A stretch of DNA of 64,000 nucleotides from the NCBI RefSeq assembly GCF_000152705.1, contig NZ_CH672413.1:3228139-3292138 (forward strand), read 5' to 3'. Shown here piece after piece: positions 9,089 through 61,876 of the stretch; within the stretch, counting starts at the first letter, position 1; each line of letters opens with the position of its first letter. Below the pieces are notes generated by a model that did no database searches, was not told the DNA's origin, and saw only the letters and a list, made by a program, of their open reading frames with translations. The DNA is from Janibacter sp. HTCC2649. GTDB taxonomy: Bacteria; Actinomycetota; Actinomycetes; Actinomycetales; Dermatophilaceae. A program made the translations under genes and the position numbers.

Positions 9089-9895
9089 TCAGGCGAAGGA
9101 GAAGAGGGCGACGGGGGCGGTCGTCGGGTGCTCGGACCCGCTGGCCGGCTCCAGGGTGATCCCGGCACCGGTCGCAATGGTCGCGTCACCCTGCATCGGG
9201 ATCGTCACGGCGCCACTGCCCCGGATGAGGCCTGCGCTGACCATTCCCTGGCCGGGCACATCGAACCAGAGCTGGTAGGCCTTGCCGAAGGGTGCCTCAG
9301 GCATCGCGTCGGCGAGGAAGACGGCCTTCTTGTGCGAGGGACTGCGCACGATCGTGATCTCGGAGGTCCCCATCGGCTGTTCGACGCGCTGTGCATCGCT
9401 GGCGCTCAGGACCTGCTCGGTCGCGGTCAGTCGCGGTGCGTCGTCGTTCCAGGGCTGCCACACGGCTCCGCCAACGGCGAAGACGGCTGCGGCGGCGGCG
9501 GCCGCCAGCCAGGGCTGCACCCGGAACCGGCGGCGGCGGGCGGCGAGCTCGTCGACAGGAGCCGATGCCGGCGCTGCCGAGACGGTCAGAGGGGCTGAAT
9601 CGGTCACAGGAGCCGTCTCGAGCGACTCGATCGACTCGGCCGGGACCTGCTCCACCGACGTGATCGGTGAGAGCTGGCGGGTCTGCGAGATGGCCGAGAG
9701 GACCGACGCACGCAGAGGAGGAGGGGGAGGAAGTTCGACGTCGATGGCCATGGCGGCTGCGGCTGCCTGCAGCTCGGCCACCTCGGCGCGGCAGTCCTCG
9801 CACAGGTCGAGGTGGATCTCGAAGGAGCGTCGCTCCTCGTCGGTCACAGCATTGACGGCATATGCACCTGCCAAAGCGTGGGTGTCTGGATTCAT
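9089..9895 (-). CDS. rskA: RskA-like anti-sigma-K factor, membrane bound
   Basis: Expected to hold SigK at the membrane until regulated proteolysis releases it. The N-terminal zinc-anti-sigma motif is intact: His28, Cys32, Cys35 in FEIHLDLCEDC. A proline-rich linker precedes one transmembrane helix (PWLAAAAAAAVFAVGGAVW), then an extracytoplasmic RskA domain with KAYQLWFDVPGQGMVSAGLI. The 268-residue length fits the family. Its ATG overlaps the sigK stop by four bases (9892-9895), so translation is coupled. Confidence 0.92.
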   Translation of the reverse strand: MNPDTHALAGAYAVNAVTDEERRSFEIHLDLCEDCRAEVAELQAAAAAMAIDVELPPPPPLRASVLSAISQTRQLSPITSVEQVPAESIESLETAPVTDSAPLTVSAAPASAPVDELAARRRRFRVQPWLAAAAAAAVFAVGGAVWQPWNDDAPRLTATEQVLSASDAQRVEQPMGTSEITIVRSPSHKKAVFLADAMPEAPFGKAYQLWFDVPGQGMVSAGLIRGSGAVTIPMQGDATIATGAGITLEPASGSEHPTTAPVALFSFA

Positions 9896-10494
9896 GCCGT
9901 CACCTCCAAGGTGTCGCGCAGTCTGATGAGTCCATCTCGGATCCGAGTCTTGGCCGTTCCGAGCGGTATGCCCAGGAGTGCTGCGACTTCGGTGTGAGTG
10001 TGTCCGCCGAGGTAGGCCAGCTCAATCGCGCCCCGTTGGGTCTCGGTGAGTGTGGCCAGTGCGCGGCGTACACGCTGCTGGTCGAGCCGAACCTCAACCT
10101 CTTCGAGAGTTGAGTCGTGCTCGCGTTCGGTGGTCGTGGTCTCGTAGGTCACTTCGCGGGCCTTGCTGGCTTCGGCCGAGCGAACCCGGTCAACGGCCTT
10201 GCGGTGCGCGATGGTGAGCATCCACGAGAGGGGCGATCCCCGTGAGGGGTCGAACCGGGTGCAGTGCCGCCAGATGTCGAGGAAGGCCTCTTGTGTGACC
10301 TCTTCGCTCTGTGCCCGGTCGCGAACGACCCGGACGACCAGACCGTGAACCCTGGCGGCGGTGGCGTCGTAGAGCTGAGCGAACGCTGCCTCGTCACCGC
10401 GAGCGGAGCGAGTCAGCAGAGCGCCGAGATCCGGTCCCATGGCAGCAGCCGGCGAAGGTGTGTTACCTGATCCGACTGCTGCCATGACGACCAT
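9892..10494 (-). CDS. sigK: ECF RNA polymerase sigma factor SigK
   Basis: A group IV sigma factor with region 2 (VTQEAFLDIWRHCTRFDPSRGSPLSWMLTIAHRKAVDRVR) and region 4 (LTETQRGAIELAYLGGHTHTEVAALLGIPLGTAKTRIRDGLIRLRD). The SigK assignment rests on the downstream rskA, the upstream fasciclin lipoprotein gene (like mpt70/mpt83 in mycobacteria), and four matching promoters in this window. The gene is 51 bp after the fasciclin gene and likely expressed from the same autoregulated promoter at 11226-11254. ATG 10494 is used; ATG 10482 is also possible. Confidence 0.92.
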   Translation of the reverse strand: MVVMAAVGSGNTPSPAAAMGPDLGALLTRSARGDEAAFAQLYDATAARVHGLVVRVVRDRAQSEEVTQEAFLDIWRHCTRFDPSRGSPLSWMLTIAHRKAVDRVRSAEASKAREVTYETTTTEREHDSTLEEVEVRLDQQRVRRALATLTETQRGAIELAYLGGHTHTEVAALLGIPLGTAKTRIRDGLIRLRDTLEVTA

Positions 10495-10545
10495 GATTGC
10501 CTACTTCGTCTCTTGTTCGTTCATCGAGCCTGTTGTGGGCATCGA

Positions 10546-11190
10546 TCACATGGCCGGGAGGAGCACCTTGTCGACGATGTAGACGGTGGCGTTCGCGGTC
10601 TGGACGTTGCCGCAGATGACGCTGGCGTCACCGACCTTGAAGTCCTCGCCACTGCCCGAAACGGTGATGGTGCCGCCGCCGAGGGTCTTGTGCTCACCGG
10701 CGATCTTGTCGGGAGCAATCTTGCCCTCGATGACGTGGTTCGTCAGGACCTTGGTAAGCAGACCCTTGGGGTCGGCCATCGCGGCGTCCATCGTGGCCTT
10801 GGGAAGGGCAGCGAAGGCGCTGTCGATCGGGGCGAAGACGGTGAGTGCCGGAGCGGTGTTGAGGGTGTCGACGAGGCCGGCTTCCCCAACTGCGGTCACG
10901 AGGGTCTTGAGGAGCGGGTTGGCGCTCGCGGCGGTGGCGACCGGAGCGGTCATCATGCCGTCGAACGAACCGGCGCCCGTGGTCGGGACCTGGGCGCAGC
11001 CGGCGCCGAAGGGCTTGGCCGACATGTCGTCAGCCGAGGCCGAGGGCGACTCGGAGGGGGCGGGTGCCGAGGTGGTCGACGACGAGGTCGTCGAGCCCGT
11101 GTCCGTGTCATCGGAGCTGCCACAGGCCGCGAGGCCGAGGGGCAGTGACAATGCGAGGGCGAGGGCGGCGGTGCGGTGGGTGAGCTTCAT
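10546..11190 (-). CDS. Fasciclin-domain lipoprotein (MPT70/MPT83-like)
   Basis: ATG 11190 follows AAGGAG and opens a lipoprotein signal peptide with lipobox LAAC (Cys23). A Ser/Thr/Pro-rich linker leads to one fasciclin domain: NPLLKTLVTAVGEAGLVDTLN, TVFAPIDSAFAALP, LTNHVIEG and VICGNVQTANATVYIVDKVLLP. In mycobacteria the homologous MPT70/MPT83 are major SigK-controlled surface antigens. Here the gene is first in the operon with sigK and rskA and has a SigK-type promoter 36 bp upstream. The molecular role of the domain (adhesion, cell-envelope binding) is not certain. Confidence 0.93.
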   Translation of the reverse strand: MKLTHRTAALALALSLPLGLAACGSSDDTDTGSTTSSSTTSAPAPSESPSASADDMSAKPFGAGCAQVPTTGAGSFDGMMTAPVATAASANPLLKTLVTAVGEAGLVDTLNTAPALTVFAPIDSAFAALPKATMDAAMADPKGLLTKVLTNHVIEGKIAPDKIAGEHKTLGGGTITVSGSGEDFKVGDASVICGNVQTANATVYIVDKVLLPAM

Positions 11191-11225
11191 GGTCGTCTCC
11201 TTGAGGCGGGTTGGCTTACATCTCT

Positions 11226-11254
11226 TATTCGCCACTGCCACAGACCCGGATTGG
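11226..11254 (-). promoter_or_regulatory. SigK-type promoter of the fasciclin-sigK-rskA operon
   Basis: On the minus strand CCAATCC (11254-11248) is followed after 16 bases by CGAATA (11231-11226). This resembles the mycobacterial SigK consensus as I recall it (CCATCC / CGAAT). The predicted transcript has a roughly 30-nt leader containing the AAGGAG of the fasciclin gene. It implies positive autoregulation of sigK. Confidence 0.75.
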
Positions 11255-11322
11255 TGCTCCCCAAACTTTTTTCCAACTTTCTACCGCCGGGTATGCCGGC
11301 CACTCACCTCCCACACAGAAGT

Positions 11323-11366
11323 GCGTCCGCACGAATGGCCAGGTGCTGGGCCATCCGTGCGGACGC
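11323..11366 (-). terminator. Hairpin terminator after the molybdenum oxidoreductase gene
   Basis: An 18-bp stem (11323-11340 with 11349-11366, one G-T position) with an 8-base loop lies about 25 bp past the stop codon. It separates the oxidoreductase gene from the fasciclin operon promoter. Confidence 0.8.
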
Positions 11367-11389
11367 AAGGGTCTGCTGCGGGTTCCGGA

Positions 11390-12961
11390 CTACTCGACGT
11401 TGACGGGGATGGTCTGCCAGCCGGTGGCACCGCGGGGGAACGGTGAGGCCCGCTTCTCCGTCTGGACGGCGCCGGTGAGGTCGGTCGCGCGGACCGTCAG
11501 CTCGTGTCGGCCGGCGGTGGCATCCCACTCGAAGAACCACTGGCGCCAGTAGTCGACGTTGGCGTCCGGTCCGAGGGTGGCCTTCTGCCAGGGGCCGTCG
11601 TCGACGCGGATCTCGACCTTCTCGATGCCGCGGCCCTGGGCCCAGGCCACGCCACCGATGACGTTCTTGCCGGCCTTGAGGGTGGAGAGCCCGCGAGGGG
11701 TGTCGATGCGGGACTGCGTGAGAATCCGTCCGTCGGTCGCCCACTCGCGCTCGGTCCAGTAGGCCTTCTTGGCGGCATACGTCGTGGCAGTGAGGCTCTT
11801 GAGCCACTTCGTTGATCCGACGAAGCCGTAGAGGCCGGGCGTGACGAGCCGCACGGGGTAGCCGTGGCGGCGGGGGAGGGGCTCGCCGTTCATCCCGATC
11901 GCGAGCAGGGCTTCGCGGTCATCGGTGAGCGCCTGCACGGGCGTGGAGATGGTCATGCCGTCGACGGACGTGCTGAGGATCTGGTCGGCGCCAGAGCGAA
12001 CTCCCGCCCGCTCCAACAGTTCTCGCACGGGGACCCCGAGCCAGCGAGCGCCACCGATGTAGCCACCGCCGACCTCGTTGCTGACGCAGCACATCGTGAT
12101 GTCCTTCTCGATGAGGTCCATCTTGAGCAGGTCGGCGTAGGTCAGCTTGAAGGGCTTGTCGACCTCGCCGTCGATGGTCAGCTCCCAGGAGTCGGCGTCG
12201 ACGCGGGGGATGACCAGGGCGGTGTCGATCCGGTAGAAGTCGGCATTGGGGGTGCGGAACGCCGTGAGGCCCTTGACCTTGCTTTCGATCCCCTGCACGA
12301 GCGGAGGCAACGGTTTTGCGGGGGCGGGGAGGGCGATGTTGGAGGGGGCGATCGCGTCGCTCGTGAGCTTCTGGCCGAAGGCGCCCACGGCAGCGGCGCC
12401 GACGGTCACGCCACCAGCACCGAGCAGGAAGGCGCGGCGGCCGGCCGGGCTCGCCTCTCCGGTCGCACGGGCGTTGTGGTCGGTGGGGCTCTCGACCTCT
12501 CCCGCGCCCCCAGCGCGCGGGATGAGGCGAAGCAGGAGGACGAGCAGGCCAACCCCGACGAGGCCGGTCACCAGACCCGGGATGACGTCGGTCGGTCCCG
12601 CGGTCGACCGCAGGATCGCGGCGGCCGCGGCCAGCGCAGCGAGCACGACGATCATGAGACGACCCACGGTGGGGTGGCGTCGGGAGATCAGTCCTGCCAC
12701 GGCGGCGAAGATCAGCGTGACGATGGCGACGCTGCCGATGAGGACGGGCTTGTCATTGGTCCCCATCGTCCTGACGGCCCATTCCTTGACCGGCGTGGGC
12801 GTGGCGTCGATGACCTGCGAGCCCACGGCAAGAACCGGTGAGGACTCGGGGGAGACAAGGGCCGCGACGAGGTGACCAGCAGCGGCACCACCAAGGGCGG
12901 CCAGAAGGCCGCTCACGGCATACGGCCAACGAGGTGCGGTCGGTCCTTCAGATGCGTCCAT
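11390..12961 (-). CDS. Membrane-anchored sulfite-oxidase-family molybdopterin oxidoreductase
   Basis: A 523-residue protein in three parts: five or so N-terminal transmembrane helices, a Tat-like segment (RRAFLLGAGGVTVGAAAV) leading to the exported domain, then the molybdopterin-binding and dimerisation domains of the sulfite oxidase family. The molybdenum-ligand cysteine is in DITMCCVSN, and LVTPGLYGFVGSTKWLKSL is the family signature. The substrate is unknown; related enzymes reduce or oxidise sulfur compounds or repair methionine sulfoxide. ATG 12961 lies about 8 bases downstream of a SigK-type -10 box, predicting a leaderless message. The promoter is divergent from purF. Confidence 0.9.
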   Translation of the reverse strand: MDASEGPTAPRWPYAVSGLLAALGGAAAGHLVAALVSPESSPVLAVGSQVIDATPTPVKEWAVRTMGTNDKPVLIGSVAIVTLIFAAVAGLISRRHPTVGRLMIVVLAALAAAAAILRSTAGPTDVIPGLVTGLVGVGLLVLLLRLIPRAGGAGEVESPTDHNARATGEASPAGRRAFLLGAGGVTVGAAAVGAFGQKLTSDAIAPSNIALPAPAKPLPPLVQGIESKVKGLTAFRTPNADFYRIDTALVIPRVDADSWELTIDGEVDKPFKLTYADLLKMDLIEKDITMCCVSNEVGGGYIGGARWLGVPVRELLERAGVRSGADQILSTSVDGMTISTPVQALTDDREALLAIGMNGEPLPRRHGYPVRLVTPGLYGFVGSTKWLKSLTATTYAAKKAYWTEREWATDGRILTQSRIDTPRGLSTLKAGKNVIGGVAWAQGRGIEKVEIRVDDGPWQKATLGPDANVDYWRQWFFEWDATAGRHELTVRATDLTGAVQTEKRASPFPRGATGWQTIPVNVE

Positions 12962-12969
12962 GGCAAGCC

Positions 12970-12997
12970 ATTCGGTGCGAGGGCCGCCACGGATTGG
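12970..12997 (-). promoter_or_regulatory. SigK-type promoter of the molybdenum oxidoreductase gene
   Basis: On the minus strand CCAATCC (12997-12991), a 16-bp spacer, then CGAAT (12974-12970). Sequence and spacing match the fasciclin operon promoter. The initiation site is predicted at about 12961-12963, at the ATG. Confidence 0.75.
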
Positions 12998-13040
12998 AGC
13001 GGCGCGCCAGCGTCCCGCGAACCCGTGGGACACTTGGAGT

Positions 13041-14615
13041 GTGGCACGCGGAGACGGACGACTGACCCACGACCTGATGCCCGGCGAGAAGGGCCCCCAG
13101 GACGCTTGTGGCGTCTTCGGTGTCTGGGCTCCCGGCGAAGATGTCGCGAAGCTGACCTACTACGGGCTCTATGCGCTGCAGCACCGCGGCCAGGAGTCTG
13201 CGGGCATCGCGACGAGCAACGGCCGACGCCTCCTCGTCTACAAGGACATGGGCCTGGTCTCGCAGGTCTTCGACGAGCGATCCCTCGGGTCCCTCACCGG
13301 TCACCTCGCGATCGGTCACTGCCGCTACTCGACCACGGGTGCCTCGATCTGGGAGAACGCCCAGCCGACGCTCGGCGGTCACGACGGCGGCACGGTCGCC
13401 CTGGCCCACAACGGCAACCTCATCAACTCCGCCGAGCTGCGCGACATGGTCGACGCCGCCAACGGTGACGAGGCCCATCGTGGCGAGCTTGGGCGAGGCA
13501 ACACGACCGATACCGCGCTGGTCACCGCCCTGCTGACCGCCGACGAGGACCGCACGCTCGAGGAGTCTGCCCTCGAGGTCCTGCCCAAGCTGCGCGGCGC
13601 CTTCTGTTTCGTCTTCATGAACGAACACACCCTGTATGCCGCCCGCGACCCCCAGGGGATCCGTCCCCTCGTCCTGGGTCGCCTGGAGCGTGGCTGGGTG
13701 GTGGCCTCCGAGACGGCAGCGCTCGACATCGTCGGTGCGTCCTTCATCCGTGAGGTCGAGCCGGGAGAGCTCATCGCCATCGACGAGGACGGCCTGCGCT
13801 CGCAGAAGTTCGCCGAGCCCGACCGCAAGGGCTGCGTCTTCGAGTACGTCTACCTCGCTCGCCCCGACACGACGATCAACGGTCGGGTCGTGCACGAGGC
13901 TCGCGTCGAGATGGGTCGCACGCTGGCGCGTGAGCACCCCGTCGACGCCGACCTCGTCATGCCCACGCCCGAGTCGGGCACACCTGCGGCCATCGGTTAT
14001 GCCCAGGAGTCGGGCATCCCCTACGGCCAGGGCCTCGTCAAGAACGCCTACGTCGGACGCACGTTCATCGCGCCGTCGCAGACCATTCGTCAGCTCGGCA
14101 TCCGGCTCAAGCTCAACCCGCTGCGTGAGGTCATCAAGGGCAAGCGACTGATCGTGGTCGACGACTCGATCGTGCGCGGCAACACCCAGCGCGCCCTCGT
14201 GCGGATGCTGCGCGAGGCCGGTGCGGCCGAGGTCCACGTGCGCATCTCGTCGCCGCCGGTGCGCTGGCCCTGCTTCTACGGCATCGACTTCGCGACCCGG
14301 GCCGAGCTCATCGCGACCGGCATCGGGGTCGAGGAGGTCTGTCGTTCCATCGGCGCTGACTCCCTCGGCTACATCTCCGAGGACGGCATGATCGCGGCGA
14401 CCGACCAGCCGCGCGAGATCCTCTGCTCGGCCTGCTTCACCGGGACCTATCCGCTGGAGATGCCGTCCAGTGAGCGCGGCGGCAAGGGCCTGCTCGAGCT
14501 CGAGTTCCCCGTCGAGGTTGGTGAGAGCGACGCCTCCGACGTGGGCACGCTCGACGTCGATCGGGTCTCGGTCACCGCCGCTGGTGGTGCCGCCGAGGCC
14601 GTCCGTCGCCCGTGA
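13041..14615 (+). CDS. purF: Amidophosphoribosyltransferase
   Basis: Catalyses the committed step of purine synthesis, forming phosphoribosylamine from PRPP and glutamine. GTG 13041 begins [11 protein letters not shown], matching the usual actinobacterial N-terminus. Residues 1-22 would be a propeptide, cleaved to expose the catalytic Cys23 in DACGVFG. The Ntn glutaminase half contains [17 protein letters not shown], and the PRTase half contains [13 protein letters not shown]. Cysteines at CFYGIDF and CSACFTG suggest the B. subtilis-type 4Fe-4S cluster. The last 50 residues are a variable acidic tail. purM follows after 25 bp. Confidence 0.97.
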
Positions 14616-14640
14616 TGGTCCGGGCAATAGGCTCTCGGGC

Positions 14641-15873
14641 GTGAGCGATATGGGCAGTCAGGGCGAACAGATCACCTATGCCGGGGCCGGTGTCGATGTC
14701 GAGGCCGGTGACAAGGCCGTCGAGCTGATGAAGGCCGACGTGCGTCGCGCGACCCGACCCGAGGTGCTCGGCGGGCTGGGTGGGTTCGCGGGCATGTTCG
14801 ACGCCTCTGCCATCGCCCGCATGGACCGCCCGGTCCTCGCCACGTCGACCGACGGTGTGGGGACCAAGGTCGCCATCGCGCAGGCCCTCGACATCCACGA
14901 CACCATCGGCTTCGACCTCGTCGGCATGGTCGTCGACGACATCGTCGTCTGTGGCGCCGAGCCCCTCTTCATGACCGACTACATCGCGACCGGCAAGGTC
15001 GTGCCCGAGCGGATCGCTGCGATCGTCGGCGGCATCGCCCGGGCCTGCGAGCAGGCCGGGGTGGCGCTCATCGGTGGCGAGACGGCCGAGCACCCGGGAC
15101 TGCTGGAGCCCGACGAGTACGACGTGGCCGGAGCCGCCACCGGCGTGGTGGAGTATGCCGCCGTACTCGGCCCCCAGCGGGTTCGCACCGGAGACGTCGT
15201 GCTGGGTCTGGCCAGCTCGGGTCTGCACTCCAACGGCTACTCGCTCGTGCGCAAGGTTGTCGCGCACGCCGGGTGGGCGCTCGATCGTCACGTCGACGAG
15301 TTCGGCCGCACCCTGGGTGAGGAGCTGCTCGAGCCGACCCGCGTCTACTCGCGCGATCTGCTCGACCTCATCGCCACCGACGGCCTCGACCTGCATGCCC
15401 TCTCGCACGTCACCGGCGGCGGCCTCGCGGCCAACCTCGCCCGCGTCCTGCCCGACGACGTGTTCGCCCGCATCGACCGCGGCACGTGGACGCCGCCCGC
15501 GGTGTTCTCCACGATCCAGCAGCTGGGTCGGGTGCCGCAGGCCGACATCGAGCGCACCCTCAACATGGGTGTCGGATTCGTGGCCATGCTGCCTGCAGAC
15601 CAGGCCGAGCTGGCCGTGGCCACCCTGGCCACGAGCGGCATCGTCGCCTGGCCGATGGGCGAGGTGACGGCGCTCGAGGACGCTCACATCGAGGACGGCG
15701 TCGAGGTCGTGCGAGGTGCCAAGGGCGTCGACGGCGGCTCCGTGCAGGTCGTCGGTAGTCACCCCGGGACGACGCCGAAGGCACGTCCGTCCAGCGGACC
15801 TCCCAGCGGGGTCATGGCGATGCGTGACCACGTCGATCTCGAGGCCGCGAACGAACCGGTCCGCGGCGACTGA
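14641..15873 (+). CDS. purM: Phosphoribosylformylglycinamidine cyclo-ligase (AIR synthetase)
   Basis: Converts FGAM to aminoimidazole ribonucleotide with ATP. Family motifs are TYAGAGVDVEAGDKAVELMK, LATSTDGVGTKVAIAQ, DDIVVCGAEPLFMTDYIATG, GGETAEHPG and HVTGGGLAANLARVLP. GTG 14641 gives 410 residues; ATG 14650 is also possible. About 45 extra residues at the C-terminus (after VVRGAKGVDGG) are Pro/Ser-rich and exceed the usual 340-360 residue length. It is directly downstream of purF and almost certainly co-transcribed. Confidence 0.96.
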   Translation: MSDMGSQGEQITYAGAGVDVEAGDKAVELMKADVRRATRPEVLGGLGGFAGMFDASAIARMDRPVLATSTDGVGTKVAIAQALDIHDTIGFDLVGMVVDDIVVCGAEPLFMTDYIATGKVVPERIAAIVGGIARACEQAGVALIGGETAEHPGLLEPDEYDVAGAATGVVEYAAVLGPQRVRTGDVVLGLASSGLHSNGYSLVRKVVAHAGWALDRHVDEFGRTLGEELLEPTRVYSRDLLDLIATDGLDLHALSHVTGGGLAANLARVLPDDVFARIDRGTWTPPAVFSTIQQLGRVPQADIERTLNMGVGFVAMLPADQAELAVATLATSGIVAWPMGEVTALEDAHIEDGVEVVRGAKGVDGGSVQVVGSHPGTTPKARPSSGPPSGVMAMRDHVDLEAANEPVRGD

Positions 15874-15886
15874 GTCCCCGAGGCGG

Positions 15887-16441
15887 TCAGATCACGGTGA
15901 TCTGGGGGGCGAACATCTCCATGGCGCCCAGGGCCTGCTCGTGCTTCTCGACGCTCGAGCCCGCGCACGCCTGAGCGATGACGCGCACGCTCGCACCGGC
16001 ATCGCCCGCAGGGATCGCGGTGGCAATGACGCAGCAGTCGGTGGCCACCCCCGCGAGGGCGATCCGCGCCTGGTCGCCAACAACGGACCGCAACTGCGCA
16101 CCCCACTTGCCGAAGGTCCCCTGCGTGACCACATGGTCGGCGAGGTCAGCGAGCTCGGGCACCACGGCATACAGAGGGTTCTCGTCGGGGACGAGCGCGA
16201 ACTGCCAGTCGTCGTAGTAGTCCGCCCACGATCCGCCGAGGCCCGGGTCTGCGACGAACCGGGTGACCACGACACGACCGGCGTATGCCGCCGCGAGACG
16301 CGCGATGCGCGGCACCGTCTCTGCCCACATGGGCGAACCCCACGCGCTGGTCTTCGGGTCGGCGAAGATCACCTGCGGGTCGATGATGACGAGCCACTCG
16401 TCCTCCAGCGGCTCGACGGACTCGACGGCCGCTCGGGTCAT
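15887..16441 (-). CDS. Isochorismatase-family cysteine hydrolase
   Basis: A 184-residue cysteine hydrolase with the catalytic triad pattern: Asp in LVIIDPQ, Lys in GTFGKWG and Cys in GVATDCCVIATA, including the cis-peptide region before the cysteine. Members act on amides such as nicotinamide, or on ureides and pyrimidine breakdown products. The start overlaps the stop of an NCS1 nucleobase permease gene by four bases, so the hydrolase probably acts on the compound that permease imports. The exact substrate cannot be read from the sequence. Confidence 0.88.
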   Translation of the reverse strand: MTRAAVESVEPLEDEWLVIIDPQVIFADPKTSAWGSPMWAETVPRIARLAAAYAGRVVVTRFVADPGLGGSWADYYDDWQFALVPDENPLYAVVPELADLADHVVTQGTFGKWGAQLRSVVGDQARIALAGVATDCCVIATAIPAGDAGASVRVIAQACAGSSVEKHEQALGAMEMFAPQITVI

Positions 16442-17931
16442 GCCCCGCTCTCCTGGCGCTGCACCGTGCCACGTCGCGCGACGTAGGTGACCGCGAACGA
16501 CAGGACGAGGGCCAGCAGCACGCCGAGGTTGGCGTAGGCGAACGTCCCCTCCCAGTAGGACCCAGCGGGATCGTCGACAAACGTGCCGAGGCCGAACGGG
16601 TGCAGCAGGAAGCCCTGCCAGTTGTTCCAGGCGGCGTCGTCGGCGTAGTTGTTGACGACCAGACCCCAGCCGAGCACCGACGTGACGACCATCGTCCCGA
16701 TCGACACCCAGTCGAAGGCGCCGTAGCGGCCGGTGGAGTCGAACAGGGCGTCGTCGTCGTAGTCACGCTTGCGCAGCGCGATGTCGGCGATCATGATCCC
16801 CGCCCACGAGGCCAGAGGCACTCCGAGGGTGATGAGGAACGACTGGAACGGGTTGATGAAGTTCTCGGCGACGAAGACGACGTAGAACGTGCCGAGGGTG
16901 AGGATGACTCCATCGACGAGCGCCGCCATCGGCCGCGGGATGCGCACCCCGAGGGAGAGCAGGGTGAGGCCGGATGAGTAGATGCCGAGGACGGCCCCGG
17001 AGACGAGCGAGAGGATCGCCGCGATGAGGAAGGGCACGAGCACCCACGTCGGGAGCAGCGTGGCCAGCGTCCCGATGGGGTCGGCGCCGATGCCCTCGAG
17101 GACCTTCTTGTCAGAGCCCGCGAGGGCGAGGCCGTAGCAGACGAGGAGGGCCGGGGCGAGGGCTCCGCCCAGGGTGTTCCAGCCGACGATCGCGGTGCCG
17201 CTGGCGTCACGGCGCTGGTAGCGCGACCAGTCGGCGGCGATGTTGATCCACCCGAGACCGAAACCGGTCATGACCATGACGAGGGCCCCCACCATGGCGC
17301 CGATGCTTCCGGACGGCAGGGCCGACACGGCCGACCAGTCGAGGTGGTTGAACGTCATGACGACGTAGAGGACGGTGATGATGCCGGTGATCCAGGTCAG
17401 GACCGACTGCATGCGCATGATGATGTGATAGCCGGCGACGGCCGCGGCCACGATCATGGCGGCCACGACGACTGCGGCGACGATCTTGGTCCCGGTGCCG
17501 CCGCCCCAGCCGAGGCGCTCGAAGATCGTCGCGGTCGCGAGGACGGCGAGGATCGCGAGGAAGGTCTCCCAGCCGATCGAGGTGAGCCACGAGATCACGC
17601 CGGGGACCTTCTGGCCCTTGACGCCGAACGCGGCGCGCGACAGCACCATGGTGGGGGCCGATCCGCGTTTGCCGGCGATCGCGATGATGCCGCAGAGAGC
17701 GAACGACACCACGACGCCGATGATCGTCACGACGACGGCCTGCCAGAACGAGATGCCGAAACCGAGGACGAAGGCCGCGTAGGAGACACCGAACACCGAC
17801 ACGTTGGCGGCGAACCACGGCCAGAAGAGATCTCGGGGCGCGGCGGTGCGTTCCGCCTCGTCGATGATCTCGATGCCGGTGGTCTCGACGCCGAGGCGCT
17901 TGGCAGCGTCGGCTGTGCGCACGTCAGTCAT
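16438..17931 (-). CDS. NCS1-family cytosine/purine/allantoin-type permease
   Basis: About twelve hydrophobic helices and NCS1 features: WFAANVSVFGVSYAAFVLGFG early, GKRGSAPTMVLSRAAFGVKGQKVPG, and LGWINIAADWSRYQRRDASGTAIVGWNTLGG, the substrate/sodium-site region. ATG 17931 (MTDVRTADA) is preferred over 17943. It forms a two-gene operon with the downstream cysteine hydrolase through an ATGA overlap, suggesting uptake followed by amide hydrolysis of a nucleobase-like compound. The ligand is not determinable by eye. Confidence 0.9.
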   Translation of the reverse strand: MTDVRTADAAKRLGVETTGIEIIDEAERTAAPRDLFWPWFAANVSVFGVSYAAFVLGFGISFWQAVVVTIIGVVVSFALCGIIAIAGKRGSAPTMVLSRAAFGVKGQKVPGVISWLTSIGWETFLAILAVLATATIFERLGWGGGTGTKIVAAVVVAAMIVAAAVAGYHIIMRMQSVLTWITGIITVLYVVMTFNHLDWSAVSALPSGSIGAMVGALVMVMTGFGLGWINIAADWSRYQRRDASGTAIVGWNTLGGALAPALLVCYGLALAGSDKKVLEGIGADPIGTLATLLPTWVLVPFLIAAILSLVSGAVLGIYSSGLTLLSLGVRIPRPMAALVDGVILTLGTFYVVFVAENFINPFQSFLITLGVPLASWAGIMIADIALRKRDYDDDALFDSTGRYGAFDWVSIGTMVVTSVLGWGLVVNNYADDAAWNNWQGFLLHPFGLGTFVDDPAGSYWEGTFAYANLGVLLALVLSFAVTYVARRGTVQRQESGA

Positions 17932-18016
17932 GCCCGTGAGCATGTCAGATCTCAGGCGGCAGAAGACGTATGCCGCACGAGGACGTGCGAAAGAGGGTCG
18001 AGCGTGAGGTCAGGCG

Positions 18017-18211
18017 TCAACGACGCCCGTTGACCCACTTGTCGTAGTCGTCGTCCTCGTCGGTCTCCGGCTCGGCGACCCGAGTCGAAGGCAGCGTCGA
18101 AGAACTACCGTGGAGTTCTCGCTCAAGCGAGCTCAGGTCAGTGTCGGGGCTGTAGTACTTCAGCTCCCGTGCCACCTTGGTCTGCTTGGCTTTTGCTCGG
18201 CCGCGCCCCAT
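18017..18211 (-). CDS. DUF3073 family protein
   Basis: A 64-residue protein starting MGRGRAKAKQTKVARELKYYSP, the DUF3073 signature, and ending in an acidic stretch then KWVNGRR. It is widely found next to purM in actinobacteria, as here (convergent, two genes away). The function is unknown; the basic N-terminus could bind nucleic acid. Confidence 0.9.
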   Translation of the reverse strand: MGRGRAKAKQTKVARELKYYSPDTDLSSLERELHGSSSTLPSTRVAEPETDEDDDYDKWVNGRR

Positions 18212-50100: not shown

Positions 50101-50101
50101 T

Positions 50102-52836: not shown

Positions 52837-52850
<14 letters not shown>
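52260..52850 (+). CDS. Membrane protein of unknown function
   Basis: A protein of about 196 residues with five hydrophobic segments: WHAVVSAGWALALAISPL, ALAAHLIGLVLAFGAVMLVDWHGLVWL, AHPLVWMGLLLIVVSGAFLGPDLG, and others. Arrangement resembles a small multi-pass integral membrane domain with several histidines; cofactor binding is possible but not shown. ATG 52260 is chosen over 52242. It overlaps the convergent gene at 52837 by 14 bp. Confidence 0.65.
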
Positions 52851-56547
<3,697 letters not shown>

Positions 56548-56553
<6 letters not shown>

Positions 56554-56579
56554 TCACCTGATCACCTGATCACCTGATC
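56548..56579. repeat. ACCTGATC tandem repeat, four copies, covering the DUF445 stop
   Basis: ACCTGATC repeats four times without change. Because the unit is 8 bp, TGA appears in each reading frame, giving backup stop codons after the natural TGA at 56551. Slippage could change copy number without altering the protein. Confidence 0.85.
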
Positions 56580-56614
56580 GGCTGGACAGGCTCGGACTTC
56601 CGTGGTGTCCGGTT

Positions 56615-56644
56615 GGGGCTGCGGCTTGCGTCGTCCTTTGGGAC
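56615..56644 (-). repeat. Inverted copy of the 30-bp XRE-flanking repeat
   Basis: This 30-bp segment is the exact reverse complement of 57566-57595. It starts with GTCCCAAAGGAC (minus strand), whose GTCC/GGAC arms form a small palindrome. It ends ten bases from the stop codon of the XRE gene, so the gene is bracketed by inverted copies. Confidence 0.85.
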
Positions 56645-56653
56645 AGCGCCCTC

Positions 56654-57406
56654 CTACCGTTGGTCGATCCACCTCGGTACCTCGCGATACGCAGGCACGT
56701 CTGGAATGAAGTCCGGGCCGACGGTGGACCATTGGGGTGCCACCTCGCCGGGAGTGAGGGCCTCATGGGTGTGCCACCACCAACGGGGGCCCTCTGGCGT
56801 GTGCACCGGCACCCGGTGCCCGGCCAGCCGCCGCTCCCCGCCCCGAGCCTGCGCGGCAATTTCTCCAAGATCCCAGTCCTCCGGCTGCATCACCATCCCG
56901 CCATCGCGGACCGACACCACAAGGGAGAGCCTTCCCGCGGCCAGGACCGCGCGAACAACCGACAGCTTGAGGGCCGTCGGGTCGTTCTGGGCCCGGCTCA
57001 GAGTCATGCGAGGGACCCCCATCGACTCGGCGAAGAGTCGCATCGACACCCCCGAGGCCTGAACGACCTCTCGGATGGTCGCTGCCAGGGAAGCGCCGGT
57101 CCGGTCGACGAGCTCGGCTGCGATGCATGCCTTGATGCCGTCCGGGACCACGGCCAGCCCGTACGCCGTGGACTCCAGTCCGGCGAGCACGGCGCTGAGG
57201 CGCAGGTCGCCGGGACGCGACTCAAGGCGGGCGATGAACGCGGCAGACAGGCCGCGGTGATCGGCATACACGCGTTGGCTCTCTCGCCGCCGAAGGCGGT
57301 CTCGGCGCAGGGCGCACCCGATCATGTCGTCGCTCGTCAGGTCCCCTCGCGAGGACTCGTCGAGCAGTTCGCGTGCTTCCTGCTGCGCGCGTCGATACCC
57401 CTTCAT
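56654..57406 (-). CDS. Helix-turn-helix (XRE-like) regulator with two HTH segments
   Basis: A 250-residue protein. The first HTH-like part is RRRESQRVYADHRGLSAAFIARLESRPGDLRLSAVLAGLESTAYGLAVV; a second one is ATIREVVQASGVSMRLFAESMGVPRMTLSRAQNDP. The C-terminal 80 residues have Trp-rich VPVHTPEGPRWWWHTHEALTPGE. ATG 57406 chosen. Flanking copies of a 30-bp repeat with palindromic core could be its operators or the ends of a small mobile cassette. Function not recognised. Confidence 0.72.
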   Translation of the reverse strand: MKGYRRAQQEARELLDESSRGDLTSDDMIGCALRRDRLRRRESQRVYADHRGLSAAFIARLESRPGDLRLSAVLAGLESTAYGLAVVPDGIKACIAAELVDRTGASLAATIREVVQASGVSMRLFAESMGVPRMTLSRAQNDPTALKLSVVRAVLAAGRLSLVVSVRDGGMVMQPEDWDLGEIAAQARGGERRLAGHRVPVHTPEGPRWWWHTHEALTPGEVAPQWSTVGPDFIPDVPAYREVPRWIDQR

Positions 57407-57469
57407 GGCCACCCCAGCATCGTTCGTTCCGTCAGGCTTGCATGGGGTACCGACAAGCTGGGCGAAGCG

Positions 57470-57595
57470 AGGTGTCCCAACGCACGGCGCAAGCCGCAGT
57501 GGCGGGGATGGGGTCAGGTGTCCCAAAGGACGACGCAAGCCGCAGTGCCGGGGGTGGGGTCAGGTGTCCCAAAGGACGACGCAAGCCGCAGCCCC
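57470..57595 (+). repeat. Three tandem copies of a 46-bp repeat upstream of the XRE gene
   Basis: Copies of GTCCCAAAGGACGACGCAAG-type sequence begin at 57474, 57520 and 57566, period 46 bp. The first is diverged in its core (GTCCCAACGCAC); the other two are identical over 26 bp. The third extends to match the inverted copy at 56615-56644 over 30 bp. They occupy most of the gap between the XRE gene and the DUF1295 gene. Confidence 0.9.
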
Positions 57596-57621
57596 CACGG
57601 GGGACCGAGACAAGCCGGAGT

Positions 57622-58407
57622 TCAGGCGGATTGGCGTGGTGGGCGGGGGAAGAACATCGAGGTGCGCTGCATGTACTCGGAGTAGCCGGGCCGCTTGGAC
57701 ATCTCGGACTCCAGCAGCCGCGCTCCCGTCGCGAAGGCGAGGAAGTAGGTCATGATCACCGGCGAGAACACCGTCAGCACCGCCGGCCAGACCTCGGCTG
57801 AAATGACCCACAGCCCCCACCAGACGGCGGCGTCGCCGAAGTAGTTCGGGTGCCGCGTCCACGCCCACAGACCGCGGTCCATGATCTTGCCCTTGTTGGC
57901 CGGGTCCGACTTGAACCGCGCCAGCTGGGCGTCGCCGATCGCCTCGAAGCCCACGCCGACGACGAACAACGCCACTCCGAGCGCCGCCACCCAGCCGAGC
58001 GGCTTCGCACCTGCAGCCGCCGCGACCTGCAGCGGCAGGGAAACGACCCAGGCAGCAAGCCCCTGGACCACGAAAACCCTGCGGACGGCATACCCGAAAC
58101 GCTTTTCGGGCGGCGCCGCGGAGAGCAGCTTCTCGTAGCGCGGGTCCTCATCGGCGCCCAGCGCCCGGCGCCGGATGTGCCAGGCCAGGCGCACCCCCCA
58201 CACCGTCACGAGCACCGCGAGGAGCAGCGACCGAGCTCCCGGGCTGAAGAACGTGCAGACCCACGCGATGACGACGAAGACGAGACCCCACGCGATGTCG
58301 ACGACGCTCACCTTCCCGAGCCGCCGGGCGATGAGCGCCGTGACGCCCATGACGACGGCAGCAGCGACGAGGCAACTGAGGGTGACGAGCAGGAAGCGAT
58401 GCATCAA
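57622..58407 (-). CDS. DUF1295 (steroid-5-alpha-reductase-like) membrane protein
   Basis: A 261-residue protein with about seven helices and the DUF1295 pattern: VSVVDIAWGLVFVVIAWV, AWHIRRRALGADEDPRYEKL and DRGLWAWTRHPNYFGDAAVWWGLWV, the last similar to the NADPH or SAM site of 5-alpha-reductases and isoprenylcysteine methyltransferases. It overlaps a CFA-synthase gene by four bases and shares its SigK-type promoter. The orthologous position in mycobacteria is Rv0446c beside ufaA1. A role in fatty-acid modification is likely. Confidence 0.9.
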   Translation of the reverse strand: MMHRFLLVTLSCLVAAAVVMGVTALIARRLGKVSVVDIAWGLVFVVIAWVCTFFSPGARSLLLAVLVTVWGVRLAWHIRRRALGADEDPRYEKLLSAAPPEKRFGYAVRRVFVVQGLAAWVVSLPLQVAAAAGAKPLGWVAALGVALFVVGVGFEAIGDAQLARFKSDPANKGKIMDRGLWAWTRHPNYFGDAAVWWGLWVISAEVWPAVLTVFSPVIMTYFLAFATGARLLESEMSKRPGYSEYMQRTSMFFPRPPRQSA

Positions 58408-59684
58408 CGCACCGTGTCATGCGCGACGGGCGCTCCGCCGGACCGACGCGACAGGATCTGGTCGACACCCATGCGGCCATCACGGAACGCCTGGCCACTC
58501 CCGACGAGGTACAGCCGCCAGATGCGGGCGACCTCCTCGCCGACGAGCTCGACGACGGCCGCCCAGTTCTTCTCGAACGTCTCGCTCCACGCGTCGATGG
58601 TCCACACGTAGTGCTCGCGCATCGCATGGACGTCGCGGACCTCCAGCCCACCCGCCTCGATCAGCTCGACCGTCTCGCCGACGGGTCGCATGTGCATGTC
58701 GGGCGCGATGAACGACTCGATGAACGGCCCGCCGCCGGGGTGGCGTCCGCGCCGGGACATCTGCTGGATGAGGACGTAGCCTCCCGGCTTCACCGCTTCG
58801 CGAAGAACAGCGGCGTATGCCGGGTAGTTGCCCTGTCCGACGTGCTCACCCATCTCGATCGACGCCACGGCGTCGTAGGGACCGTCGGACACCTCGCGGT
58901 AGTCCTGCAGCCGGATCTCGACCCGGTCCTGAAGCCCGCGCTCGCGGACCCGGGCGTCGATGAACGCCTTCTGCTCCTTGGCGATGGTCACTCCGGTGAC
59001 CTGCGCGCCGTAGTGCTCGGCGGCATACAGGGACAACGATCCCCAACCACAGCCGACGTCGAGGAACCGCGAACCCTCGTGGAGCCCGATCTTGCGGCAG
59101 ATGAGGTCGAGCTTGGCGGACTGCGCCGACTCGAGCGACTGCTGCGTCCGGTTCGGGTCTCCACTCCACCACCCCGACGAATAGGCCATGTGCGGGTCCA
59201 GGAGGAGCTCGTAGAACGCGTTGGAGAGGTCGTAGTGGTGGCTGATCGCCGACCGGTCACGACCGAGGGAATGGAGCCGACCGCGCAGACGGGCCTGGCT
59301 CGAGGGCGCCTCGGGGCGACCACCGAGTGCCCCCACCTCACGGGCGAGAGCGATGAGGCGCGGGGCGGTGCGGGCGAGGGTGCCAGCGCTGAGGCCGCTC
59401 ACTCCCCGCTCGGCGAGGGTGGCCCGAGCCAGGTCCAGCGCCTCGCCGACGTCACCCTGGACGTCGATCTCACCGGTCACATAGGCCTGGGACACACCGA
59501 GCTCACCCGGCGACCACAACAGCCGCCGCAGCGCCTGCGGTGAGCGCAGAACGAGGACCGGCCCCTCCTCCGGTCCCGCTCGTGAGCCGTCCCATGCCCG
59601 CAGCCCCACGGGAAGCGGCCCACGCAGGAGGGGGACCAGTGCGTCGGCGATCCGGGGGGCGAGGTCAGGGGATGAAGTGCTCAC
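58404..59684 (-). CDS. Cyclopropane-fatty-acid-synthase family methyltransferase (UfaA1-like)
   Basis: A SAM-dependent enzyme that acts on unsaturated acyl chains of membrane lipids. The N-terminal non-catalytic part precedes ISHHYDLSNAFYELLLDPHMAYSSGWW, SRFLDVGCGWGSLSLYAAEHYGAQVTGVTIAKEQ and VASIEMGEHVGQGNY. GTG 59684 (426 residues) is preferred to ATG 59693, because that ATG overlaps the -10 box of the promoter; seven bases separate the box from the GTG. It leads an operon with DUF1295. Confidence 0.9.
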   Translation of the reverse strand: MSTSSPDLAPRIADALVPLLRGPLPVGLRAWDGSRAGPEEGPVLVLRSPQALRRLLWSPGELGVSQAYVTGEIDVQGDVGEALDLARATLAERGVSGLSAGTLARTAPRLIALAREVGALGGRPEAPSSQARLRGRLHSLGRDRSAISHHYDLSNAFYELLLDPHMAYSSGWWSGDPNRTQQSLESAQSAKLDLICRKIGLHEGSRFLDVGCGWGSLSLYAAEHYGAQVTGVTIAKEQKAFIDARVRERGLQDRVEIRLQDYREVSDGPYDAVASIEMGEHVGQGNYPAYAAVLREAVKPGGYVLIQQMSRRGRHPGGGPFIESFIAPDMHMRPVGETVELIEAGGLEVRDVHAMREHYVWTIDAWSETFEKNWAAVVELVGEEVARIWRLYLVGSGQAFRDGRMGVDQILSRRSGGAPVAHDTVR

Positions 59685-59691
59685 GATCAGC

Positions 59692-59719
59692 ATTCGGAGG
59701 AGCCTCCCGCGCGGATTGG
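59692..59719 (-). promoter_or_regulatory. SigK-type promoter of the CFA synthase-DUF1295 operon
   Basis: CCAATCC (59719-59713), 16-bp spacer, CGAAT (59696-59692) on the minus strand. The GTG at 59684 follows after seven bases, predicting a leaderless message. Confidence 0.78.
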
Positions 59720-59741
59720 GTGCTCGGGAGCAAAGATGAAC

Positions 59742-59770
59742 CCAATCCAATCCCACCCAACGCGACGAAT
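59742..59770 (+). promoter_or_regulatory. SigK-type promoter of the FAD oxidoreductase-DUF1365-CFA operon
   Basis: CCAATCC (59742-59748), 17-bp spacer, CGAAT (59766-59770). ATG 59778 begins seven bases later, the same geometry as the divergent promoter at 59692-59719. The two -35 boxes form an apparent inverted repeat. Confidence 0.75.
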
Positions 59771-59777
59771 GGACAGC

Positions 59778-61064
59778 ATGACCTCGACAGACGCTGCCCC
59801 ACGCACTGCTGTCGTCGGCTCCGGAGTGTCCGGGCTGACGGCCGCGCACGTGCTCTCGCAGCACCACCGCGTCACCCTGTTCGAAGCCGACAACCGGCTG
59901 GGCGGGCACGCCCACACCCATACCCTCGAGACCTCCGACGGGGAGGGTGGCGTTCGTGTCGACACCGGCTTCATCGTCCACAACGACCGCACGTACCCCC
60001 ACCTGCAGCGGCTGTTCGGTGAGCTCGACATCCCCGTGCGCGACACCGAGATGTCGATGTCGATCCTCGACCCGGCGAGTGGCCTCCAGTACGCCGGCGG
60101 GCGCGGCATCACCGGGTTCCTCGCGCGCCCCCGTCAACTGCTGTCGCGCGACTTCCTCACCATGTTGCGCTCGGTGCGCCGTTTCCACAGGGAGGCGACC
60201 GCCTACCTCGCAGCGACCGACGACGAGGACCAGACGACCTACGGCGAGTTCATCGCCGCGCGCAGCTTCCCGTCGAGCTTTGTCGAGCTGTATGCCGTGC
60301 CGCTCGTCTCGTGCGTGTGGTCCAGTGGGCGCGGCGACGCCATGGACTACCCGGCGCGCTATCTCTTCCAGTTCCTCGAGCACCACGGAATGCTCAGCAT
60401 CACCGGGTCGCCGCAGTGGCGCACCGTCGTGGGCGGCTCGGCCACCTACGTCGAGGCGCTCGCCGCGCGACTGACCGATGTGCGCCGCGGGCAGGGTGTC
60501 CTCGGGATCGAGCGCGACGACGACGGAGTCACCATCACGACTCGCGCCGGAGACGAGCGCTTCGACAGCGTCGTCATCGCCACCCACGCCGACGACGCCC
60601 TGCACCTCCTGGCCGACGCAACCCCCATCGAGAAGGAGGTCTTGGGCGCCTTCCGCTACTCGCGCAACGAGACCGTCCTGCACCGGGACGAGTCGCTCCT
60701 GCCGTCCGCCTCGTGGGCCCGCGCCTCCTGGAACTACCGTGTCGCTCGTCCGGGCCACGACGAGGGCACGACCGGGCCGGTCGTCACCTATGACATGACC
60801 CGACTGCAGGGCCTGCCGTCCGGTGACCCCCTCTACGTCACCCTCAACGCGACCGCCCTCATCGACCCGGCCAAGGTCATCGCGGTCATGGACTACGCCC
60901 ACCCGATCCACGACCTGGACGCGGTGCGCGCCCAGCGTCGGCGGGATGAGATCACGACCTCGCGCACGGCCTTTGCCGGCGCGCACTGGGGCTGGGGTTT
61001 CCACGAGGACGGCTGTCGCTCCGGTGTCGAGGCGGCCGAATCGCTGGGGGTGCAGTGGACATGA
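59778..61064 (+). CDS. FAD-dependent NAD(P)-binding oxidoreductase (amine-oxidase-like), lipid-modification cluster
   Basis: A 428-residue flavoprotein: TAVVGSGVSGLTAAHVLSQHHRVTLFEADNRLGGHAHTHTLE (FAD-binding GxGxxG and RxGG), GFIVHNDRTYPHLQRLFGELDI and VVGGSATYVEALAARL. Homologues stand next to DUF1365 and CFA-synthase genes in many bacteria (Rv0449c in M. tuberculosis). Probably desaturates or oxidises the acyl chain methylated by the partner enzyme. ATG 59778 is chosen from the promoter; ATG 59736 has a GGGAG but lies upstream of the promoter. Confidence 0.9.
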   Translation: MTSTDAAPRTAVVGSGVSGLTAAHVLSQHHRVTLFEADNRLGGHAHTHTLETSDGEGGVRVDTGFIVHNDRTYPHLQRLFGELDIPVRDTEMSMSILDPASGLQYAGGRGITGFLARPRQLLSRDFLTMLRSVRRFHREATAYLAATDDEDQTTYGEFIAARSFPSSFVELYAVPLVSCVWSSGRGDAMDYPARYLFQFLEHHGMLSITGSPQWRTVVGGSATYVEALAARLTDVRRGQGVLGIERDDDGVTITTRAGDERFDSVVIATHADDALHLLADATPIEKEVLGAFRYSRNETVLHRDESLLPSASWARASWNYRVARPGHDEGTTGPVVTYDMTRLQGLPSGDPLYVTLNATALIDPAKVIAVMDYAHPIHDLDAVRAQRRRDEITTSRTAFAGAHWGWGFHEDGCRSGVEAAESLGVQWT

Positions 61065-61876
61065 CCGCTGGCTCCACAGATGTTGGTGTCATGACTGATG
61101 TTGGTGTCATGACGGATGCTGTTGCCGTGGCGCTTGATCTCCCCACCCTGCCGGCACTCGTCGTCGGTCGGGTCCACCACACCCGGCACACGCCGCTGCG
61201 TCATACCTTCACCCACCGGCACTACCAGTGGCTCATTGACCTTGACGAGCCGCTGACCCTCCCGGCCTGGCTGCGTCCGGTCGCCTCCTTCCGCGCCGAA
61301 GACCACCTGGCCGGGTCGGAGTCGCACGCCGACCTCAAGGCGAACGTGCTCCGCTGTCTGGAGCGCGGCGGCATACCCAGTGACGGTGTGACGCGCGTGG
61401 TCGCCCTGACGAACGCCCGTGTCCTGGGGCACGTCTTCGACCCGATGACGGCGTACTGGTGCCTCACGGAATCCGGCGTCCTGCGCGGGGTCGTCGTCGA
61501 GGTGCACAACACCTACGGCGGACGGCATGCGTATGCCGTTGCGCCCGATCCCAGCGGCGCAGCCTCCGTGGACAAGGACTTCTACGTCTCACCGTTCAAC
61601 GACACGTCGGGGGAGTACGCGATCCGGTTCCACCTCGACGCCGACAGGGTGTCCGTCGGCATCAGGCTGCACCGCGAGGGCAAGCTCATCCTCACCGCCG
61701 TGGTCGAGGGCGACCTCGTCCCGGCGACGCCGCGCTCCGTGCTGGCCACTGTCGCCCGCCACCCCCTCATGCCCCAGCGCGTGACTGCCCTCATTCGGAT
61801 GCACGGCATCCGCCTGTGGGCCCGCCGTCTGCCCGTCCAAACCCGTCCCCCTGCCTCCGAAGAGAGTGTCCGATGA
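61061..61876 (+). CDS. DUF1365 family protein
   Basis: A 271-residue protein with PALVVGRVHHTRHTPLRHTFTHRHYQWLIDLDEP, NARVLGHVFDPMTAYWCL and DKDFYVSPFND, the DUF1365 signature. It is the constant middle partner between the FAD oxidoreductase and CFA synthase (Rv0448c in M. tuberculosis). The start is uncertain: an 18-bp tandem repeat gives ATGs at 61061, 61091 and 61109. 61061 overlaps the upstream stop. Function unknown, probably in acyl-chain modification. Confidence 0.9.
   Translation: MTAGSTDVGVMTDVGVMTDAVAVALDLPTLPALVVGRVHHTRHTPLRHTFTHRHYQWLIDLDEPLTLPAWLRPVASFRAEDHLAGSESHADLKANVLRCLERGGIPSDGVTRVVALTNARVLGHVFDPMTAYWCLTESGVLRGVVVEVHNTYGGRHAYAVAPDPSGAASVDKDFYVSPFNDTSGEYAIRFHLDADRVSVGIRLHREGKLILTAVVEGDLVPATPRSVLATVARHPLMPQRVTALIRMHGIRLWARRLPVQTRPPASEESVR
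61079..61114 (+). repeat. 18-bp tandem duplication in the DUF1365 gene start
   Basis: GATGTTGGTGTCATGAC plus one variable base repeats twice, encoding DVGVMTDVGVMT. The repeat duplicates an ATG and may make the start site length-variable. Confidence 0.85.

Follow-up and report, generated by a model that had tools for sequence, protein, structure and literature searches.

In the window, the 64,000-nucleotide stretch of Janibacter sp. HTCC2649 analysed here (contig NZ_CH672413.1, positions 3,228,139 to 3,292,138), four copies of a bipartite element, CCAATCC-N16/17-CGAAT, precede an operon of a fasciclin gene, sigK and rskA, a molybdenum oxidoreductase gene and two divergent operons of lipid genes. 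One lipid operon opens with a gene for a cyclopropane-fatty-acid (CFA)-type methyltransferase, cfa1, and the other with a gene for a flavin adenine dinucleotide (FAD) oxidoreductase. Judged from sequence, it is close to certain that these elements are −35/−10 promoters of SigK, an extracytoplasmic function (ECF) sigma factor of the ECF19 type, and transcription of the genes behind them would in all likelihood depend on SigK. The explanation that we favour for the whole, and consider reasonably probable, is a SigK regulon with furan-lipid genes that acts under photo-oxidative membrane stress.

SigK-type promoters in the window and the genome

An earlier note on this DNA had described the four elements. 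All are present where it placed them, with spacers of 16, 16, 16 and 17 nucleotides (nt), save that the first starts at 11227 and not at 11226. They are the only exact matches in the 4,235,068 bases of the genome, where a reversed control motif has none, and 100 dinucleotide shufflings of the window gave no match. Given these empty controls and the conservation of the sites in relatives, the probability that four short sequences are alike by chance is negligible. The accompanying claim of fixed distances from start codons can be made more precise: the distance is 7–8 nt for the molybdenum, cfa1 and FAD genes and 36 nt for the fasciclin gene, which has an AAGGAG. Transcription from ECF promoters starts about 7 nt downstream of the −10 box. 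In the molybdenum, cfa1 and FAD genes only 7–8 nt separate the end of CGAAT from the start codon, so that their mRNAs are very likely leaderless. The 93 nt that separate cfa1 from the FAD gene would accommodate the two back-to-back promoters and little else.

A relaxed form of the motif, [ACG]C[AC]ATCC-N16/17-CGAA[CT], derived from the promoters of relatives, matches this genome at 10 + 6 places versus 1 + 0 for the control. These 16 comprise the four window sites, one divergent pair outside the window and ten others, which we leave as undecided or chance. Each of the ten overlies a frame that stays open for over 150 codons; the divergent pair does so too, and frame overlap alone therefore cannot settle their status. 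One of the ten (C1:1033438-1033466) stands 7 nt before the ATG of a 283-amino-acid (aa) open frame without a Pfam match, and is possibly a further SigK target or a chance match.

The divergent pair (C1:3150575-3150676; sites starting at 3150575 on the minus strand and 3150649 on the plus strand, at 5575-5602 and 5650-5677 of locus L164) lies about 77 kb before the window. The shared sites of the proposed two-locus regulon are real, and the number of loci has to be raised to at least three. The pair separates a gene for a cupredoxin lipoprotein (PF13473) from one for a 256-aa secreted protein that has no Pfam match and presumably resembles a CHRD protein. Among the 56 genomes with a match to the secreted protein, 30 were covered, this one included, and 20 of the 30 loci have an upstream relaxed site; one of these 20 sits in a genome that was scored SigK-negative and is 81% complete.

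Conservation in relatives

We searched 119 genomes of the family, this one counted, and found the strict motif in 34 (a control match in 1), SigK in 73 and DUF1365 in 70. Loci were taken from 51 other genomes that have both SigK and DUF1365, from one that has SigK without DUF1365 and from eight that have DUF1365 without SigK. The first group, with the window, gives 52 of the 61 genomes that have both (nine were left out); the second is one of 12 with SigK and no DUF1365; the third is eight of nine with DUF1365 and no SigK, the ninth match being at a contig edge. Matches with less than 60% query coverage, sigK matches below 45% identity and cfa1 matches that landed on cfa2, the second CFA-type gene, were discarded. 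Counts below include the window unless other genera are named.

The relaxed site recurs before the fasciclin gene (41/45; 36/40 in other genera), before the molybdenum gene (37/45; 32/40) and before the FAD gene of SigK-positive genomes (40/52; 36/47). Where no fasciclin gene was found it stands before sigK itself in 4/8 loci, all of them in other genera. The distance to an in-frame start is 7–8 nt for 36 of the 37 molybdenum-gene sites and is not kept for the FAD gene, being mostly 20–71 nt in other genera. No relaxed site precedes the inner genes (DUF1365, 0/52; DUF1295, 0/25) or the FAD gene of SigK-negative genomes (0/8); elsewhere the counts are 4/52 for cfa2, 1/53 for rskA and 5/29 for cfa1. 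Across 200 letter-permuted motifs the set means were 0.00–0.10, and no single count exceeded 10, a value reached in the rskA set. The aligned sites also share letters for which they had not been selected, among them a G after the −35 box and, in the 110 sites whose spacer is 16, a C at the third position beyond the −10 box.

The remaining promoter, that of cfa1, is conserved when the gene is divergent and not when it is tandem. Of nine divergent cfa1 genes, eight carry a site with no more than one mismatch; four of the eight belong to the genus of the window, and in three others cfa1 lies about 1.2–1.3 kb from the FAD gene. Behind cfa2, tandem cfa1 has its own site in 0/20 loci, the best candidates carrying 2–4 mismatches. 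Rearrangement and promoter gain coincide, which fits selection for joint control. According to the earlier note, sigK, rskA, DUF1295, a CFA synthase (ufaA1), DUF1365 and a FAD oxidoreductase form one contiguous locus in mycobacteria, and we take the M. tuberculosis sigK neighbourhood to be FAD-DUF1365-CFA-DUF1295. The split of the locus in the window is real but not special, as a contiguous order (molybdenum gene-fasciclin gene-sigK-rskA-FAD gene-DUF1365-cfa2-cfa1-DUF1295) exists in six relatives. The molybdenum gene, which had been read as a local addition, is nothing of the kind: together with the fasciclin gene it adjoins sigK in 45/53 sigK loci.

Within the family, SigK is present in 31 of the 34 strict-motif genomes, and the strict motif in 31/73 genomes with SigK versus 3/46 others; the Fisher test on these counts ignores relatedness. 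We also tried the strict motif as a genome-wide SigK marker beyond the family, where it is weak: among 396 genomes of the phylum it matches in 96 (control match in 22), in 23/67 with SigK versus 73/329 others.

SigK, RskA and the neighbouring genes

The sigma factor of the window is SigK, as the earlier note held: it passes the curated NCBIfam model, its neighbour has an RskA_C domain, and its best solved match, 4nqw, is M. tuberculosis SigK (the next best is R. sphaeroides RpoE). With an adjacent RskA (RskA_C and a zinc-finger-type N terminus), a fasciclin partner of the MPT83 type and sites at both its own operon and its targets, it has the features of ECF19. The motif might instead belong to another ECF sigma factor, such as a second SigK-like protein (C1:3428047-3428583) that matches the SigK model with 205.7 bits. 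We consider this very improbable: that score is under the cut-off of 226, no SigK-type site was found in the surroundings of the gene, most relatives carry a site before the operon of sigK itself, and all eight genomes without SigK lack the FAD-gene site.

M. tuberculosis SigK is described as having a redox switch through a disulfide, and some functional Nocardia SigK proteins as also being without its cysteines (PMC7509140), so these are not strictly defining of SigK. Both cysteines are absent in 53/53 SigK proteins compared here, in columns taken from the structure-match alignment. A switch of the M. tuberculosis type therefore cannot be the sensor in these proteins, which leaves a membrane signal through RskA. 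The anti-sigma factor of the window fails the ChrR model (20.6 bits against a cut-off of 124.5).

The membrane anchor of the molybdenum enzyme was read from its sequence by eye. Its nearest match in the PDB is SorA (2blf), a sulfite:cytochrome c oxidoreductase, and it scores under the cut-offs of the curated SorA, SoxC, SorT and MsrP models. The candidate assignment as an MsrP methionine-sulfoxide reductase (54 bits against a cut-off of 207) was rejected. A second molybdenum oxidoreductase paralogue, away from sigK, occurs in one relative (G052) and has a strict site (L181:3014-3041) 8 nt ahead of its start. The fasciclin protein weakly matches the carotenoid-binding AstaP in the PDB (1.4e-5), which we mention as an idea only. 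A search of 9089-13100 among plasmids gave no near DNA match.

Table 1. Promoters and genes of the SigK-linked loci in the window (window coordinates)
Feature	Position	Strand	Details
rskA, anti-SigK	9089..9895	−	PF10099 RskA_C 86.6 bits and zf-HC2; NCBIfam anti-sigma factor 181.3 bits (cut-off 100)
sigK, ECF sigma factor	9892..10494	−	NF007228 263.6 bits (cut-off 226); best PDB match 4nqw
Fasciclin (FAS1) lipoprotein, MPT70/MPT83 type	10546..11190	−	PF02469; best PDB match MPT70 1nyo, 7e-35
Putative promoter of fasciclin gene-sigK-rskA	11227..11254	−	SigK-type; 36 nt before ATG of fasciclin gene
Molybdopterin oxidoreductase, sulfite-oxidase family, membrane-anchored	11390..12961	−	PF00174; nearest PDB match SorA 2blf, 5.9e-29
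Putative promoter of molybdenum gene	12970..12997	−	SigK-type; 8 nt before ATG
DUF1295 (steroid-reductase-like), second gene of minus operon	57622..58407	−	PF06966 1.8e-71
cfa1, CFA/mycolic-type methyltransferase	58404..59684	−	GTG start; PF02353 2.2e-77
Putative promoter of cfa1	59692..59719	−	SigK-type; 7 nt before GTG
Putative promoter of FAD gene	59742..59770	+	SigK-type; 7 nt before ATG
FAD oxidoreductase, UfaD-like	59778..61064	+	PF01593 (longer frame)
DUF1365, UfaO-like	61055..61876	+	PF07103 6.9e-62
cfa2, second CFA-type methyltransferase	61873..63108	+	NCBIfam CFA models, E 1e-54 to 7e-77, none reaching its cut-off

A probable furan-fatty-acid pathway in the plus operon

The plus operon extends past position 61876, where the earlier note had ended it, as cfa2 overlaps the DUF1365 gene by 4 nt. 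Furan fatty acids are reported to be made in R. sphaeroides by UfaD (RSP1091), UfaO (RSP1090, a DUF1365 protein) and the methylase UfaM, which in R. palustris are RPA2571, 2570 and 2569 (PMC7380195). The order FAD-DUF1365-CFA in the window agrees with the R. palustris locus numbering and puts cfa2 in the place of ufaM. The hallmark of this set, DUF1365 adjoining a FAD enzyme together with an S-adenosylmethionine methyltransferase, is present in the window, as judged by protein families and by comparison with an alphaproteobacterium. For that comparison we used homologues from Qingshengfaniella (Rhodobacterales): the FAD proteins share 37.8% over 413 aa, the DUF1365 proteins 32.7% and the fasciclin proteins 37.6%. 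In Qingshengfaniella the FAD and DUF1365 genes adjoin RpoE, ChrR and a fasciclin gene, and UfaD-UfaO homologues share a locus with RpoE-ChrR homologues in 7/9 cases (one exception is a 3-kb contig; none of the nine loci yielded by the genome scan came from R. sphaeroides). We therefore think it likely that the FAD-DUF1365-CFA2 triad is a UfaD-UfaO-UfaM-like pathway with a furan fatty acid as its product.

The lipid operons could instead make cyclopropane or 10-methyl branched acids and adjust membrane fluidity behind genuine SigK sites, as the two CFA/CMAS (cyclopropane mycolic acid synthase) proteins, DUF1295 and the mycobacterial ufaA1 named in the earlier note would suggest. To our knowledge, cyclopropanation does not require DUF1365 or a FAD enzyme, which here stand in the R. 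palustris furan-gene order by locus number. Moreover, cfa1 is present in 29/52 SigK-positive and 0/8 SigK-negative triad loci, so that the triad often occurs without it. On these grounds we regard a cyclopropane or 10-methyl product as rather improbable. Behind DUF1295 lies a 294-aa open frame (56654-57538, minus strand) without a Pfam match, whose status as a gene and as part of the operon is uncertain.

The trigger of the regulon

The earlier note had proposed a surface-stress response that changes membrane acyl chains. 'Surface stress' is too vague a term. In its place we lean slightly towards photo-oxidative (singlet-oxygen) membrane stress as the trigger, because of the resemblance to the furan pathway and because of photolyase and LitR-like genes beside the triad in relatives. 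A DNA photolyase gene neighbours the triad in 19/51 SigK-positive and 5/8 SigK-negative relatives, and a gene for a B12-type MerR regulator (LitR-like; B12-binding domains were checked by Pfam in seven cases) lies in the triad locus in 25/51 and 6/8, respectively. In loci without the triad, which were sigK regions and somewhat shorter, each was found in 0/41.

Upstream of the FAD gene we found a box, AACCTTTGACAAACCTT (at most three mismatches; for example L149:4832, L081:10170 and L119:6059), whose reversed form was not found. A LitR-like gene is present in 22/23 loci with the box versus 9/37 without, which makes the box a candidate operator for the LitR-like protein. The SigK site and the box occur together at 13 of 60 FAD genes; 27 have only the site, 10 have only the box, and the remaining 10 lack both. 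The eight SigK-negative loci have the box and the LitR-like gene in five cases, the gene alone in one and neither in two; most triads without SigK thus show signs of a light regulator.

Published systems offer parallels. In Pseudomonas, LitR-type regulators and light are described as controlling phrB and ufaM (PMC9758184), and in M. kansasii the homologues of MPT83 and MPT70 are reported to rise 6- and 3-fold in light (PMC9861118). In R. capsulatus, the RpoE-ChrR pair of the photo-oxidative response is reported to be closer to SigK-RskA (34% and 25%) than to RpoE-ChrR of R. sphaeroides (24% and 13%) (PMC7074977). RskA is reported to decrease in a soil actinobacterium in an ultraviolet study (PMC8965627).

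A general envelope stress, or a copper or redox stress at the surface, could set off the same SigK regulon, with lipid remodelling, cupredoxin, fasciclin and molybdenum enzyme serving surface-protein and electron-transfer functions; copper is the best concrete form of this alternative. Several members look extracytoplasmic or membrane-bound from their sequences and families, a cupredoxin lipoprotein lies behind a SigK-type site in this genome, and carQRS of M. xanthus is reported to answer copper besides light (PMC8156234). Such a trigger leaves unexplained both the photolyase and B12-MerR genes beside the lipid genes of relatives and the fact that, elsewhere, singlet-oxygen or light regulators make use of these lipid genes too, and we consider it unlikely.

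Several points weigh against the furan-lipid, photo-oxidative explanation that we prefer. We found neither a photolyase nor a LitR-like gene in the window, and the single photolyase match of the genome (C1:2469745) has neither a strict nor a relaxed site nearby. In relatives, the box and the SigK site are not mutually exclusive (Fisher P 0.26), and this, with the two of eight SigK-negative loci that have neither box nor LitR-like gene, falls short of demonstrating that one regulator has cleanly replaced the other. In SigK-positive genomes, 12/52 FAD genes are without a relaxed site (5 of the 12 carry the LitR-type box instead), and the SigK-negative genomes number just eight and are possibly related. 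As the promoters in which the relaxed motif was counted had also served to derive it, the inner genes and the SigK-negative genomes serve as the independent controls. The molybdenum enzyme, the cupredoxin and the secreted protein have no demonstrated role in photo-oxidation, and a divergent cupredoxin gene with a site occurs in this genome only (1/30 loci), which makes cupredoxin the weakest member of the regulon. It is uncertain which of the two CFA paralogues is UfaM, and Agrococcus makes a furan fatty acid, yet its authors found no UfaO. In M. kansasii the light-induced rises start from low counts, and dipZ, between the two antigen homologues, is given as not light-responsive (PMC9861118).

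In the mechanism that we propose, RskA would keep SigK at the membrane until RskA is inactivated by a signal that oxidises the membrane, most likely singlet oxygen formed in light or the lipid peroxides that arise from it. Freed SigK would then transcribe the fasciclin-sigK-rskA operon, the molybdopterin oxidoreductase gene, both divergent lipid operons and, at the third locus, the gene for the secreted protein and, less surely, that for the cupredoxin lipoprotein. FAD-DUF1365-CFA2 would make furan fatty acids, with CFA1-DUF1295 as a second acyl-modifying pair. The furan fatty acids would act as membrane scavengers of the oxidant and, as in Rhodobacter, might exert feedback on the anti-sigma factor.

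Comparison with known systems

SigK-RskA, its fasciclin cassette and the conserved SigK sites of Actinobacteria are already known (PMC7509140). The mycobacterial ECF19 system shares SigK, RskA and a fasciclin partner (the mpt83-sigK-rskA cassette), M. tuberculosis sigK is reported to be autoregulated from the Rv0449c promoter, and SigK sites are described as highly conserved among Actinobacteria (PMC7509140, citing Veyrier 2008). Unlike that system, the window has lipid genes that are apart from sigK, divergent and furnished with their own sites; the predicted leaderless molybdenum gene, the secreted-protein/cupredoxin locus and the absence of the redox cysteines are further differences.

The sigma-E-ChrR system (ECF11) of R. 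sphaeroides is alike in its targets: its sigma factor, which responds to singlet oxygen, is described as having the furan-lipid genes as core targets, and ChrR turnover under singlet oxygen as requiring furan lipids (PMC6852236). It differs in its sigma group and in having the ChrR C-terminal domain in place of RskA_C. The LitR/PplR regulon of Pseudomonas includes light-controlled genes for UfaM, a FAD oxidoreductase and photolyase (PMC9758184), which is matched by the LitR-like gene adjoining the triad in relatives; it is unlike the window, which has no LitR-like match, and the box AACCTTTGACAAACCTT of the relatives differs from the PmlR2 site TGTACA-N12-TGTACA. In M. xanthus, CarQ-CarR, with its ECF sigma factor, and the B12 photoreceptor CarH are reported to serve one photoprotective response (PMC8156234, PMC9304148). 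To that arrangement, whose target is carotenoid synthesis, we liken the 13 relatives with both a SigK site and a LitR-type box at a lipid promoter; the lipid promoters of the window, unlike theirs, have SigK sites only.

We found no paper that links SigK to furan fatty acids, in searched literature that mostly excluded subscription journals; a study of R. capsulatus mentions both, the furan acids in its reference list (PMC7074977).

Implications

The signal that starts the SigK cascade has been called still unknown (PMC7509140), and the converging evidence of gene content, neighbours in relatives and regulator parallels suggests what it may be. Three predictions follow from our reading: furan fatty acids should occur in actinobacteria with the FAD-DUF1365-CFA set; a leaderless molybdenum enzyme gene should be under SigK across much of the family; and promoters should be gained when the operon is inverted (8/9 divergent versus 0/20 tandem cfa1). 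More tentatively, and with some doubt on our part, SigK-RskA could be the singlet-oxygen switch of actinobacteria, an ECF19 system that has either acquired or retained the furan-lipid cargo run by ECF11 sigma-E-ChrR in Rhodobacter and by LitR photoreceptors in Pseudomonas. If so, furan lipids would be both a shield and a feedback on RskA; a B12 photoreceptor and SigK, acting at one promoter region in relatives, would read light and light damage together; and fasciclin antigens such as MPT70 and MPT83 would belong to photo-oxidative defence.

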